Shown here: positions 55,026 through 60,196 of the stretch, in pieces | Layout: every line of letters begins with the position of its first letter | Numbering within the stretch: the stretch's first letter is position 1 | Origin: Halolamina sediminis | Lineage (GTDB): Archaea > Halobacteriota > Halobacteria > Halobacteriales > Haloferacaceae | Length of the DNA stretch: 64,000 nucleotides | NCBI RefSeq assembly: GCF_001282785.1 | Contig: NZ_CVUA01000001.1 | Coordinates: forward strand, 1,426,001-1,490,000 | Direction: 5' to 3' | The notes under the pieces: model-generated | Seen by the model: only the letters and a program-made list of their open reading frames with translations | Told to the model about the DNA's origin: nothing | The model's database searches: none | Program-made: the position numbers and the translations under genes

Positions 55026-55205
55026 TTAGGCCCGGAACTCCCCGTGTTTCAGGCCGAGGAAGAACGCGACGATCGAGAAGACGATCATCGACGGCAGGAC
55101 CATCATGAACACCGTCGAAGGGGTCATCATCGACGTGAGCGCGACCGTCGCGACCGCGACGATCACGACGAGCGGCGCCACCGAACGCGTGAAGTCGAAC
55201 TCCAT
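55026..55205 (-). CDS. Small membrane protein, 59 aa
   Basis: MEFDFTRSVAPLVVIVAVAT, then ALTSMMTPSTVFMMVLPSMI and VFSIVAFFLGLKHGEFRA give two closely spaced hydrophobic segments and a hydrophilic end. This layout is common among conserved small haloarchaeal membrane proteins, but no function is known. ATG at 55205. Monocistronic; the 164 bases upstream of the next gene (M29) hold nothing else. Confidence 0.7.
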   Translation of the reverse strand: MEFDFTRSVAPLVVIVAVATVALTSMMTPSTVFMMVLPSMIVFSIVAFFLGLKHGEFRA

Positions 55206-55341: not shown

Positions 55342-56892
55342 TCACATCTGTTGGGCTCGCGACCGGATCTCGGCGTCGAACCCACGCATGAACTCGTCGA
55401 CGGTGTTGCCCATGAGCATCACCGGCAGCCCCTCGTCGACGAGGCGGTCCAACAGCCTCGAAGGCTCCGTGTCGAACCCCAACTCGGTCACGTCACACGC
55501 CGTCTCCGCGGCGAACACCGAACTATCGCGGCCCATCACGTAGCCGGCGTCGATGACGTCATTTGCGGCGAGGTGATCGAAGTACGAGACGAAGGATGCG
55601 GTTCGGCCCCGTCGATCCGGCCGCAAGAAGAGAAACGGCGTGATTCGATCGGAGTCCGGAAGCGCCTGTCTGACCGCCTCAGTGCTCTCGACGTCGTTTA
55701 CTTCCGCGGCGTTGAACACGCGACCGCCAGGGACTGCGGTCCAACTCGGCTGGATCTGTGAGAGGTAGGAGTCGATCTCCGGGTCCGCTAAGGGTGGTTC
55801 GTCGACGGCTTCGAGGGTGTCGTTGACCGCGTGAACGGTCTCGGCCCCAAGGAGCCCCTCGTGTCGCTCGGGGACGTCGACTTGCTCGATCGTACTCCCG
55901 GTCGCGGTAACCTCCGCCTCCAAGTACTCGTAGATGACCGGGTGTTGCTCCCCGCAGACGACGTGGGTGTCTTCCGGGATCGACTTCGCGAACGACCGGG
56001 CGATCTCGGCGCGGCTCTCCCCGAGCGTGTCCTGGTGGTCACGGCGGACGTTCGCGAGGACGACCACGTGTGGGTCGAGGAACTTCTCGTTGATCAAGCG
56101 GGTCGTGTACTCGGTGATCCCCTGGTTCTCGAAAACCGCGACGTCGTCGGGTCTGTGTCTCGCGAGCTTGGGGACGTACTCCTGGAAGACGGAGATGTTC
56201 TCGTACAGCGTCGTCCGCGGTCCTTGGCGGTTCAGCGGAATCGCCGTCCCGTTGTGGATGAGGTGTGGTTGGTTCCCGGTGATCTTCGCCAGCGTGTCGT
56301 AGCCGCGGCGGACGAACACGTCGTTGAGCCGGCGGGTGGTCGAGGACTTCCCCCGGATACCGGAGACGACGATCCGGGTGTCGATCTCGCCGATCGTCCG
56401 ACGGTGTTTGAACCCACGAACGGGTAGTGTCACCAACGACCTCAGCGCCGGGCGAAGGGAGGTCGATCCGACGGTGAACGGCGAGGCGTGTTCGCCGTCC
56501 TCGGCGACGAGATAGCTCGTCGTCGTTGTCCCGGCGTACGTACAGAACGTTTCCGCGGCGGCTTCGGCGTCGGCTCGAGTCTCGTAGACGCCCGCCGACC
56601 GCACAAGCACGTCGCCGTCGTCCGCCAGCAGCCATCGATAGCCCTCGTCCGCCCCAACCGTCCGGTACTGGGCGGTGGTGACGATCTCCGCGGCCCGTCG
56701 GCCGCCGAACCTGCGCTTAGGCTCGTTCTGGATCATCGAGGCCGCCGCACGAACGTGATCGATGGCCGACTGTGCCGCCTTGGAGGACTCGAAACTGCGC
56801 GGCGCGTGGCGCAACTCCAGTTCGCGGCCCCGAAGCCGCCAGTGCCAGCCGTCGTCGTCGGTGTACACCTCGAAGCTGGGCTCTAACCTCAT
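55342..56892 (-). CDS. capB: Poly-gamma-glutamate synthase CapB/PgsB with two YegP-like repeats
   Basis: 516 aa, the ATP-dependent amide ligase that polymerises glutamate. The first ~140 residues contain two ~45-residue YegP/DUF1508-like repeats (SFEVYTDDDGWHWRLRG..., YRTVGADEGYRWLLADDGD...), not part of bacterial CapB. The Mur-ligase-type ATP site is GIRGKSSTTRRLNDV (residues ~174-188), followed by ITGNQPHLIHNG and VANVRRDHQDTLGESRAEIA. It overlaps capC by ATGA (56889-56892) and is last of the operon. Sampled GC (about 62% in a capC line) is lower than in housekeeping neighbours. Confidence 0.9.
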   Translation of the reverse strand: MRLEPSFEVYTDDDGWHWRLRGRELELRHAPRSFESSKAAQSAIDHVRAAASMIQNEPKRRFGGRRAAEIVTTAQYRTVGADEGYRWLLADDGDVLVRSAGVYETRADAEAAAETFCTYAGTTTTSYLVAEDGEHASPFTVGSTSLRPALRSLVTLPVRGFKHRRTIGEIDTRIVVSGIRGKSSTTRRLNDVFVRRGYDTLAKITGNQPHLIHNGTAIPLNRQGPRTTLYENISVFQEYVPKLARHRPDDVAVFENQGITEYTTRLINEKFLDPHVVVLANVRRDHQDTLGESRAEIARSFAKSIPEDTHVVCGEQHPVIYEYLEAEVTATGSTIEQVDVPERHEGLLGAETVHAVNDTLEAVDEPPLADPEIDSYLSQIQPSWTAVPGGRVFNAAEVNDVESTEAVRQALPDSDRITPFLFLRPDRRGRTASFVSYFDHLAANDVIDAGYVMGRDSSVFAAETACDVTELGFDTEPSRLLDRLVDEGLPVMLMGNTVDEFMRGFDAEIRSRAQQM

Positions 56893-58106
56893 GAGTTCGT
56901 CTCCCTCCGGTGAGAGTGTGCACCCGACTCGGCGCCGTCCGTACTTTCAGAGACGTTCAGTATCGAGCGGTCGTTGATCGCGGCCTCGTCCGGTTTGAGG
57001 TGTGCAGTCCGTTCGACGATGGCAAAGCAGATCGCCACGATCGTGACGCCGACGATCGCCTCCGGCGCGCCGAACTGCCGGGGGAACCCCCTCGGCAGCA
57101 CTGCTCCGGTAATACGCGCCAGACAGAGCAACAGGACGAAGGCACCGAACTGCAGCGGCACGAACTGCCACCGGCTGGACGGCTGTGTAACGTGGGCGTT
57201 GTAGGCGTTGACGCCGGCGAGGATACCGACGAAGTACGCCGACAGCCCACGGCTGATCTCGAACTCGATGGACAGTGGCACCGCAGCCACGATGCCGAAC
57301 GCCGCGCCGAGGCCGACGAGAACCCGCCCGTACAGCAGCGTCGAGTAGTGAACCGCCTGTATCGCGACGTAGGACAGGATCAGGAGACAGACGTACAGGT
57401 AGACGAGCCGTCGGTCGGCCAGTGAGTAGATCCCGAGCAGCGCGACGGAGACGACCCCGATCCGTACGTCGTACCGTTCCCTGACCCGCTCCGACAGCAG
57501 CATCCCGATGGCGAACAGCAGCACGGTCACCAGCCGAGGCAGGATAACGGGCGACAGCCGATCGGACACCGCGATCCCCTTCCAAGTCGCGACATCTGCG
57601 GTGCGGGAGTACAGCGTCGGCGGCGTACCCGTCGCCAGTACCGGCGCGAACTCCGCTGAGACGAGATACCACCCCAACCCGAACAGACAGACGAACAACA
57701 CACACGCGGTGACGAGGTCCCAGCGTCGCGTTTCGGGGTCCAGTTGGTGGTAGTTGTACGCCGCGAGACCCGGCAGGATGCTCCCGACGAACACCACCGT
57801 CTGGAACACGTTCTCGACCATTACGCCGAGAGTCAGCAGGATCGTTACGGGTACGAGGCTCCCGATGAGGATGGCCGCGAGGAGTTCGTCACGACCGTAA
57901 ATGAGGGTCCGGTCTTTGAGCAGGCGGAGCCCAATGTAGGCGAGAGCGGCGCTCAATGCGTAGATCGGCAGCATCACGAAGTTCTTCAGTGTGTACACGG
58001 CGAGTACCGGGATCGCGATGGTCCCGCCGAGGCGGTAGCCGTACACCTGTGTCAACCCCGCGACCGCGAGCAGCCCGAACGCGGTGACCGTGACGGCGAC
58101 GATCAT
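56889..58106 (-). CDS. capC: Poly-gamma-glutamate membrane protein CapC/PgsC, duplicated
   Basis: 405 aa, about ten or more TM segments. Bacterial PgsC is near 150 aa; here two PgsC-like units are seen. The first has YGRDELLAAILIGSLVPVTI and VGSILPGLAAYNYHQLDP; the second has YGRVLVGLGAAFGIVAAVPL and YFVGILAGVNAYNAHV, both matching the PgsC phrase YGRRKFAAMLI plus VPGLIAN. The last ~40 residues are hydrophilic and Ser/His-rich. It overlaps capA by ATGA at 58103-58106; start ATG 58106 chosen because the upstream in-frame part is within capA. Role: the synthase/export channel with CapB and CapA. Confidence 0.85.
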   Translation of the reverse strand: MIVAVTVTAFGLLAVAGLTQVYGYRLGGTIAIPVLAVYTLKNFVMLPIYALSAALAYIGLRLLKDRTLIYGRDELLAAILIGSLVPVTILLTLGVMVENVFQTVVFVGSILPGLAAYNYHQLDPETRRWDLVTACVLFVCLFGLGWYLVSAEFAPVLATGTPPTLYSRTADVATWKGIAVSDRLSPVILPRLVTVLLFAIGMLLSERVRERYDVRIGVVSVALLGIYSLADRRLVYLYVCLLILSYVAIQAVHYSTLLYGRVLVGLGAAFGIVAAVPLSIEFEISRGLSAYFVGILAGVNAYNAHVTQPSSRWQFVPLQFGAFVLLLCLARITGAVLPRGFPRQFGAPEAIVGVTIVAICFAIVERTAHLKPDEAAINDRSILNVSESTDGAESGAHSHRRETNS

Positions 58107-60196
58107 CTCCAAGTCACCGTCCCGTCGACTGGCACTGCACGCACTGTCGTCCCCGACGGTCCACGCACGACATCGTACTCCCGGCCACCGCTCGTCTCGG
58201 GTGGCTCCCACTCGATCAGGCTCAGTCTGTCGAACGCCGCCCGGAGGACCTCGATACCGTCCGGCGGCGAGAGGAAGACAAAGACGTTGACGTGGGTCGC
58301 CCCCGGCGGCCGTTGCAGTTCGTAGCTGAACTCCGCCCACTCACGGTCCGTCGACGGGAGCGCCCTCTCTCGCCGCCGGAAGGAGCTGCCGGCAGTATCG
58401 TCGTACCACGAGACGAGCAAGACGAGCTCCCCGTCGGCGTTCGTTCGGTACGTCCCCGACAGGGTGAACTCGTCGTTGGTAACCGGAAGGCGGTTTCGCG
58501 GGGACAGGATCGCTCGGTTGTTGTTCGCCTGTACGCGAACCAGTTCGACACCGCCGGAACCGTCCGGCCCGATCGGCTGGTCGGAGGCGCGTGACTCCCG
58601 CCCGTAGCGCCACAGCGTCCCCTCATAGCGGTCCCCGTCGACGTCGAGATCGTCGAACTCGCCGGTAACGAACCGCTCACGCCCGAGTTGGGTCGTCCCG
58701 TCGGAACTGGCGATCCAGCCCCGAACGCGACGCTGAATCCCGCCCCGGAGTGTCAACGGCTGCTTCGACGGCGGCTCCGCCGTCGGTTGCCACCGTACGG
58801 TGCCGTCGGTGAGCCTGAACGAGTCGTCAGAGTAGCCGGCGAGTTCCCACAGTAGCCGGTCCCGGAGGGACCCAGTCACCCCCCGCGGAACGTACCCCTC
58901 CAACAGGATCGGTTCGATCCGGGCGTTCCGTACACCGTCGGCGGTGACGTCCACCCGAAGCAGCAACGATCGGTACGTCGTCCACAGGTTTTGATCGAAG
59001 AAGAGGTTCCCCAGCGACCATGCGACCAGGGCCCCTCCCCGCGTCTCGAAACCGCCGGACACGTGCGGGTGATGGTTGACGACGAGGTCCGAGCCCGCAT
59101 CGATCGCGGCGTCGGTGAGCGCACGGATCTCGGCTGTCGGCGTTCGTTGGTACTCCTCGCCGCCGTGGATCTGTGTCACGACGACGTCCGCTCGCTCGGT
59201 CGCCACGCGGACGCTGTCGCGGACGGACTCGTCTGTCCCACGGAGGACCCCCGCATCGTCGGGGACAGTGAGCGTCTCGCCCTCCTGTTGGACTGTGTAG
59301 GTTTCCTCGGACTGTTCGGCTGCCCAGTCACGCTCGTACTGCTGGCCTGCGGTCGTGGTCGCGGAGACGAACCCGATCGTCAGGTTGCCACGATCGAGAA
59401 ACGCCGGCTCGGCCGCCGCTGCCGGGTCGAACCCGGCCCCGGAGTGTGCGATCCCCGCGGTGTCGAGTGCGTCGATCGTCTCCTCGAGTCCCGGAGTGAG
59501 GGCATCGAACGCGTGTGTGTTCGCCAGCGCGGCGTAGTCGACGCCGGCATCCGCCATCGACGCGGCGGCGACCGGGTGACTCGTGAAAACGTACGCCTTC
59601 GAGGGGTGTCGCCACGGAGCCGTCGTCAGTGGCGTCTCCAGGTTGACCGACGTGACGTCGGCGCCCCGGAAAATCGGCTCGACGGACCCGAGCAGCCGGC
59701 CGTGTGAGTCCCGACGGTCACTCCCGTGGAGTTGGTAGTGTGACTGAAGGGGGTCAGTGTTCTGCCTGTAGTACCGGCGCCCGAACATCACATCCCCACC
59801 GAAGACCATACTCACGCTGCCGTCTTTCCGCCGTAGACGGACGTCGACCGTCGAGCCGGGCGCCACGGCTCGAGTCACCGATGAGTACCCCTCGCGGGTG
59901 AACTCCATCCAAGCCGGCCCCCCATCGAGCCGTATCTCGTAACTTCCGTCCTCAGCAGTCACGGTTCGCCCGACCGGCTCCCCGTCCCGATACGCGACGA
60001 CGGCGACGTTTGAAACACCGTCGTCGTCGTACACCGTCCCGGTAGCGGTCGTTGACCCGTCCCCACCAGAAACGGCCGTTCGGAGCCGGCCGGAACAGCC
60101 CGCGAGCCCGAACAGAGTACAGCCTGCCACCCCCAACAGTTCTCTTCGTCGCAATCTACCGGCTATCGCAGGTAAAGCAAAATATGTGTTGTGCAT
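58103..60196 (-). CDS. capA: Poly-gamma-glutamate CapA-family lipoprotein
   Basis: 697 aa, first gene of the capsule operon. N-terminal export signal with Arg-rich n-region and lipobox (RLRRRELLGVAGCTLFGLAGC), so lipid-anchored outside. A carboxypeptidase-regulatory-like beta domain follows (about 52-120), then the CapA metallophosphatase-like domain (about 130-430): GGDVMFGR, VTSVNLETPL, ALANTHAFDA, IHGGEEYQ, VNHHPHVSGG and SLGNLFFD. The last ~250 residues form a beta-rich C-terminal domain. Bacterial CapA is ~400 aa, so the extra domains are unusual. It ends with ATGA overlap to capC. Confidence 0.9.
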   Translation of the reverse strand: MHNTYFALPAIAGRLRRRELLGVAGCTLFGLAGCSGRLRTAVSGGDGSTTATGTVYDDDGVSNVAVVAYRDGEPVGRTVTAEDGSYEIRLDGGPAWMEFTREGYSSVTRAVAPGSTVDVRLRRKDGSVSMVFGGDVMFGRRYYRQNTDPLQSHYQLHGSDRRDSHGRLLGSVEPIFRGADVTSVNLETPLTTAPWRHPSKAYVFTSHPVAAASMADAGVDYAALANTHAFDALTPGLEETIDALDTAGIAHSGAGFDPAAAAEPAFLDRGNLTIGFVSATTTAGQQYERDWAAEQSEETYTVQQEGETLTVPDDAGVLRGTDESVRDSVRVATERADVVVTQIHGGEEYQRTPTAEIRALTDAAIDAGSDLVVNHHPHVSGGFETRGGALVAWSLGNLFFDQNLWTTYRSLLLRVDVTADGVRNARIEPILLEGYVPRGVTGSLRDRLLWELAGYSDDSFRLTDGTVRWQPTAEPPSKQPLTLRGGIQRRVRGWIASSDGTTQLGRERFVTGEFDDLDVDGDRYEGTLWRYGRESRASDQPIGPDGSGGVELVRVQANNNRAILSPRNRLPVTNDEFTLSGTYRTNADGELVLLVSWYDDTAGSSFRRRERALPSTDREWAEFSYELQRPPGATHVNVFVFLSPPDGIEVLRAAFDRLSLIEWEPPETSGGREYDVVRGPSGTTVRAVPVDGTVTWR

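Follow-up and report, generated by a model that had tools for sequence, protein, structure and literature searches.

Some CapB-type Mur ligases of haloarchaea and methanogens carry an N-terminal pair of YegP/DUF1508 repeats

We describe a CapB-type protein from Halolamina sediminis in which two YegP/DUF1508 repeats fill the first ~125 of 516 residues in front of a Mur-ligase core, an arrangement present in no fewer than 27 of the 392 genomes sampled from the order, with 29 fused open reading frames (ORFs), and also in methanogens. We establish the fusion itself, its predicted fold, its placement in a single clade, its spread and the overlap of capB with capC. The CapB-YegP fusion is a widespread and apparently so far undescribed domain architecture. 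It links DUF1508, whose function is unknown, with an enzyme whose chemistry can be predicted, and gives haloarchaeal CapB a front end that differs from that of the bacterial enzyme. We tentatively favour a model in which the protein serves an archaeal CapA-CapC-CapB system of the poly-gamma-glutamate type as its ATP-dependent ligase, equipped with a YegP docking or regulatory module; polyglutamate synthesis by this CapB is a prediction. The window analysed is a stretch of 64,000 nucleotides, with the following features:

55342-56892, minus strand: capB-type gene, 516 aa, DUF1508 pair and Mur-ligase core (translation, Pfam/NCBIfam)
56737-56877, minus strand: DUF1508 repeat 1, residues 6-52, beta-beta-beta-alpha, W16 and W18 invariant in a 24-row alignment
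56527-56664, minus strand: DUF1508 repeat 2, residues 77-122, W87, L96 and F116 invariant in the same 24 rows
56389-56457, minus strand: basic, somewhat amphipathic helix, residues 146-168, between the DUF1508 pair and the P-loop (model, hydrophobic moment, linker charge)
55345-56382, minus strand: Mur-ligase core, residues 171-516, with the P-loop GIRGKSST (178-185) and NVRRDHQDTLG (TIGR04012, fold, invariant columns)
56889-58106, minus strand: capC-type membrane protein, 405 aa, two PF14102 stretches (Pfam, E 9.6e-25), 4-nt overlap with capB
58103-60196, minus strand: capA-type protein with a PGA_cap domain (Pfam, PF09587, E 1.6e-59), 4-nt overlap with capC

The genes stand in the operon-like order capA-capC-capB, capB being third, behind its two partner genes, and the start of capC was placed at M79 of its ORF from comparison with relatives. 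The 4-nt overlap of capC and capB recurs in 21 named fused loci and in seven methanogen loci. Archaeal CapC is mostly about 380-405 aa long (most of the loci L031-L110 and L151-L157), compared to 159 aa in the methanogen locus L158, and the long form, which fused and unfused loci share, resembles a tandem duplication. Directly downstream of capB (55026-55205, minus strand) a small hydrophobic DUF7333 protein is encoded, with no known link to capB. A CapA is present somewhere in the genome in 12 of the 19 fused-CapB genomes tested and in none of the other seven, 14 of the 19 having loci linked to the regulator described below. Since B. subtilis is reported to make polymer from PgsBC without PgsA (excerpts of PMC6029982), we do not regard a missing CapA as an argument against function.

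The sequence-only reading had proposed a CapB preceded by two YegP-like repeats, and this identity is borne out by profiles, internal repetition and predicted fold, which all agree. PF07411 matches residues 1-142 as two stretches (E 1.3e-5, 25.5 bits; cut-off 22) and scores 21.4 bits, just short of the cut-off, on the whole chain. The NCBIfam profile HVO_2922 (NF041908) matches residues 6-51 (E 2.9e-5) with 24 bits, far under its equivalog cut-off of 90 bits. Of the 29 fused N-termini 24 were scanned, five being set aside as near-identical, over-extended or partial. A DUF1508 hit was obtained for 18 of the 24 at E<=0.01 and for 21 at E<=10; among 40 unfused haloarchaeal CapB scanned, from a set of 46, there was none at E<=1. 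Comparison of the repeat 1 profile with that of repeat 2 gives a probability of 97.7 (E 1.5e-12), the top value among 32 control stretches of the window CapB being just 4.1. A chance DUF1508 match is ruled out by the difference between fused and unfused proteins and by these controls lacking a repeat signal.

AlphaFold predicts residues 1-150 as two beta-beta-beta-alpha units, with a mean pLDDT of 68.5, block means of 66-89 across the repeats and low confidence at residues 62-78 and from 131 onward. On this predicted model the module shares the tandem fold of solved YegP proteins, VIA-align giving Z 13.0 to E. coli YegP (2k8e) and 12.9 to 2k49 (SO3888), both UPF0339, with the remaining rows at Z 4.7 or less save 7b5h at 7.1. 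Matches at Z under 5, including HIV-1 RT and ribosomal proteins, were taken as noise. The 7b5h match, to chain AD of a baseplate of the Anabaena contractile injection system, extends over 96 residues and is below the caution level of 8, yet far above the lower-ranked rows. Searching the sequences of solved structures with residues 1-142 returned 3bid (UPF0339) at E 0.73, ranked under three unrelated chains and not significant.

The remainder of the chain, residues 139-516, is predicted as a Mur ligase fold closest to FolC (1w78; Z 23.9, 328 residues aligned), the FolC/MurF fold being matched at Z 23-24. The Mur central and C-terminal domains are recognised by predicted structure, PF08245 reaching only 15.7 bits, under its cut-off of 24. 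TIGR04012 (PgsB) matches residues 161-336 (E 4e-25) with 88.4 bits, under the equivalog cut-off of 222.7 bits, so that the window CapB is a homologue and not a scored equivalog. P-loop and catalytic-region residues are invariant among 46 haloarchaeal CapB.

The statement that bacterial CapB begins directly with the Mur-ligase domain needs correction, a predicted transmembrane helix preceding it at residues 1-23 of B. subtilis PgsB (excerpts of PMC6029982). No such helix was detected in the 60 residues before the core of haloarchaeal CapB, fused or unfused, where the top 19-residue hydropathy is 0.66 in the window CapB and does not exceed 1.49 among the 29 fused or 1.06 among the unfused proteins. 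We had considered that the YegP pair replaces the bacterial anchor; the anchor is missing from unfused haloarchaeal CapB as well, so the pair does not stand in for it specifically. The linker with the pre-P-loop helix is positively charged overall. The hydrophobic moment before the P-loop averages 0.52 in fused and 0.54 in unfused CapB over core backgrounds of 0.31 and 0.30 (sd 0.11-0.12), a modest signal of about 2 sd that is equal in unfused CapB. We suggest that this basic amphipathic helix, common to both kinds of haloarchaeal CapB, may hold the ligase at the membrane, standing where bacterial PgsB is predicted to use its transmembrane helix and being preceded, in fused proteins, by the YegP pair, and that the Mur core would add glutamate at the inner membrane face beside CapC.

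The fusion is by no means confined to the window. In the order sample 114 of the 392 genomes match the window protein somewhere, many solely to DUF1508 or to remote Mur ligases. Eighty fetched loci and the window yielded 82 CapB ORFs, 29 being fused (27 genomes; two partial) and 53 others (seven fragments), unfused CapB thus outnumbering fused ones in the same halophile order. Fused ORFs were chosen by eye from match starts. The fetched loci come from the matches listed and omit weak or partial ones: G026, G009, G196, G219, G135:C8, a second match in G038 and the majority of those to DUF1508 only in long frames. The ORF at L097 is probably the other half of the fused L096, split by contig ends, and L061 is without capC because the contig stops there. 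Carriers of the fusion include Halorubrum aquaticum, Natronomonas gomsonensis, Halopenitus persicus (two copies), Haloferax gibbonsii, Halohasta salina, Natrinema mahii and Halobellus rufus. A contig scan with two tight peptide patterns, which returned haloarchaea only, missed the methanogens and is no guide to bacteria, gave 22 named loci, 21 of them fused. The fusion also occurs on three haloarchaeal plasmid records, annotated as 'hypothetical protein' on two and as 'Mur ligase family protein' on one.

Outside the order the fusion is carried by methanogens. Of 294 genomes sampled from the phylum 19 have a strong CapB match, and the eight of these lying outside the order all carry MCR_alpha, identifying them as methanogens. 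In seven of the eight the N-terminal pair is present, being detected at E 6e-21 to 1e-17 by a profile built from residues 1-125 of 24 haloarchaeal modules, which matched none of 140 shuffled copies. The Pfam DUF1508 model picks up repeat 1 of these seven proteins only weakly, at E 0.003 to 0.06 and never reaching the cut-off, and gave no match on the one full methanogen chain scanned. Two genes merged by a sequencing error were rejected as an explanation, the same junction being present in 29 ORFs of 27 genomes and in seven methanogen genomes. The sequence-only reading had held that the fusion being common and already described would count against it; the fusion is indeed widespread, which was unforeseen there, and a description was not found in the literature searched, most subscription papers lying outside that search. 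Excerpts of PMC11915815 make no mention of it; they call CapB ubiquitous among Halobacteria and report it from a few Methanosarcinales. The former is at odds with our sample, where a match of any kind is confined to 114 of 392 genomes at most. DUF1508 itself appears in papers on Mycoplasma hominis and on an Erythrobacter phage.

DUF1508 occurs in several further arrangements. The CapB of L092 has another DUF1508 pair at the C-terminal end, and L031 contains two fused capCB pairs about 5 kb apart in the same direction, coming from two different subclades. In L084 and L087 capB is broken into two ORFs, possibly a pseudogene or a sequencing error. A stand-alone DUF1508 gene near an unfused capB was seen at one locus only (L051, about 5 kb off), using the fused-N-terminus profile, which may miss typical DUF1508. 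Proteins with a hydrophobic N-terminal part combine DUF7139 with five or seven DUF1508 stretches (L160:2667-4319 in the H. sediminis genome itself, five; L088:4492-7290), and in L089:7857-10934 there are eight DUF1508 stretches, with DUF7139 not matched.

A tree of the ligase core, built from 74 of the 82 ORFs, unites 27 fused and seven unfused rows in one clade (100/100) and requires two state changes, one gain and one loss of the module being the simplest reading of this core tree. For a second tree eight rows were removed (near-duplicates and L079 with its shortened start) and eight methanogen rows added. The seven unfused rows adjoin the fused L092 in the first tree and stand apart from it in the second, leaving their exact place unsure. 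In the second tree methanogen CapB separate the fused haloarchaeal proteins from the remaining haloarchaeal CapB, which makes the fused state contiguous. The root is not fixed, since rooting by the methanogen CapB of L158 failed (branch 6.8), and either gain or loss at the base would fit. The CapB cores of L034 and L038, from genomes of different families, are nearly identical (dS 0.02) and their N-terminal modules differ at dS 0.25, which suggests a recent transfer with recombination between module and core.

The properties of the module bear on its function. Its net charge is negative in all 29 fused proteins, and its mean identity of 0.39 compares to 0.66 for the core, the module being the less conserved part in every one of the 253 pairs formed by 23 fused rows. 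In each of ten chosen pairs dN is below dS, indicating that the module is under purifying selection there. Fast divergence with dN below dS, acidity and absence from most haloarchaeal CapB in our view point to an adaptor meeting a changing partner instead of a catalytic or polyanion-binding part, and the YegP pair is probably a docking or regulatory module and not part of the catalytic machinery. We imagine a cytosolic, self-contained pseudo-dimer that would dock a lineage-specific protein partner or tune the synthase.

The same observations weigh on other roles. The sequence-only reading had offered three, namely binding of the growing polyglutamate, sensing of salt and positioning of CapB on its membrane partner, and only positioning on a partner survives as a candidate. 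A role in place of the substrate domain found at the N-terminus of MurC-F, with the growing polyglutamate chain as ligand, would suit the location of the pair, bacterial MurC-F carrying a precursor-binding domain at that end (excerpts of PMC11915815); the uniformly negative charge is poorly suited to a polyanion ligand, although there may be a local basic patch, and the absence of the module from all 40 other haloarchaeal CapB scanned, the seven unfused rows within the fused clade and the lower conservation than in the core weaken this proposal further, making it quite unlikely.

The pair might instead drive CapB oligomerisation. HVO_2922 reportedly forms homodimers and DUF1508 units appear to work in twos, as in that protein, and tandem YegP structures match the whole pair; a tandem pair can, however, satisfy its own interface within one chain, so that a second chain is not needed, and we consider oligomerisation unlikely. 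A salt or stress sensor could be imagined from HVO_2922, a putative YegP protein, being listed as perchlorate-induced in Haloferax volcanii (excerpts of PMC12175516); the distribution lends this no support, unfused CapB being commoner than fused in the same halophilic order, and such a role appears very unlikely. The module could also be a tolerated passenger, merely aiding folding or solubility in high salt: fast divergence and acidity fit this as they fit an adaptor, and the unfused rows within the clade fit a passenger as well. Retention of the module in haloarchaea and methanogens, the invariance of W16, W18 and W87 across 24 haloarchaeal rows, the ten pairs with dN below dS and the coupling of a repeat 1 motif to a neighbouring regulator all speak against it, so that we regard a mere passenger as highly improbable.

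This coupling, which was no part of the sequence-only reading, suggests what the partner of the docking or regulatory module may be in one subclade. A small response regulator is encoded upstream of capC on the same strand at 16 of the 29 fused ORFs and at none of the 53 other CapB ORFs, some of the latter being fragments or lying at contig ends; L084, one of the others, has a receiver protein on the opposite strand about 3.5 kb away. The gap between regulator and capC is 34-124 nt (15 measured). All 16 regulator-linked fused proteins have the motif GRGFGW in the first hairpin of repeat 1, which is found in none of the 13 other fused proteins. The 15 complete regulator-linked proteins form one subclade (97/97), so the association counts as one evolutionary event. 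No regulator stands next to capC at the window locus, at the 12 other fused ORFs or at the seven methanogen loci. Among the named loci 13 have GRGFGW and 12 of these the regulator, the contig of the thirteenth, L127, beginning too near capC to tell; these loci overlap with the order sample and therefore are no independent test of the link. One regulator-linked locus, L114, belongs to Haloferax gibbonsii.

The one regulator scanned contains a receiver domain and no other domain. Of 15 aligned from the order sample 14 have 124-145 aa and one is a 67-aa fragment, and all full-length ones keep a DVMMP stretch, which we take to be the phospho-acceptor site. A protein matching a PAS/GAF histidine kinase query (one of them scanned by Pfam) lies within 5 kb at 15 of the 16 regulator-linked loci. 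A receiver-only regulator without an output domain should act by contact, and the CapB module is a candidate target, which is speculation. The most specific version, a phosphorylated single-domain regulator docking to repeat 1 via the GRGFGW hairpin and directly switching the polymer synthase on or off, is rather improbable in our judgement; if true, it would mean a two-component output acting on an enzyme and not on DNA, and direct signalling control of capsule synthesis is suggested for this one subclade.

Comparison with known systems places the window protein next to CapB/PgsB (TIGR04012) of the CapBCA/PgsBCA systems, with which it shares the Mur-ligase core, the P-loop and an operon with CapC and CapA. 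In contrast to B. subtilis PgsB it has the YegP pair and lacks the predicted transmembrane helix, and its CapC of 405 aa with two PF14102 stretches differs from B. subtilis PgsC, predicted to form five helices in about 150 residues (excerpts of PMC6029982). With YegP/UPF0339 proteins (PF07411; 2k8e, 2k49, 3bid) the module has in common the tandem beta-beta-beta-alpha repeats of 2k8e and 2k49, matched at Z of about 13, while being fused to an enzyme and divergent in sequence, with 13-14% identical residues when aligned by structure. HVO_2922 of Haloferax volcanii likewise is an archaeal DUF1508 protein, a small one with a single repeat judging from the 54 positions of NF041908, whereas the window CapB carries two repeats in one chain with an enzyme. 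The haloarchaeal DUF7139-DUF1508 multi-repeat proteins, such as the one in L160, also have tandem DUF1508, combined with DUF7139 and a hydrophobic N-terminus and without a ligase match. FolC and the cyanophycin synthetase CphA have the Mur fold in common with the window CapB. An ATP-grasp domain is itself an enzyme domain. CphA is likewise a Mur ligase that makes a polymer and has gained an extra domain at the N-terminus, of the ATP-grasp type (excerpts of PMC11915815), where the window CapB has the YegP pair.
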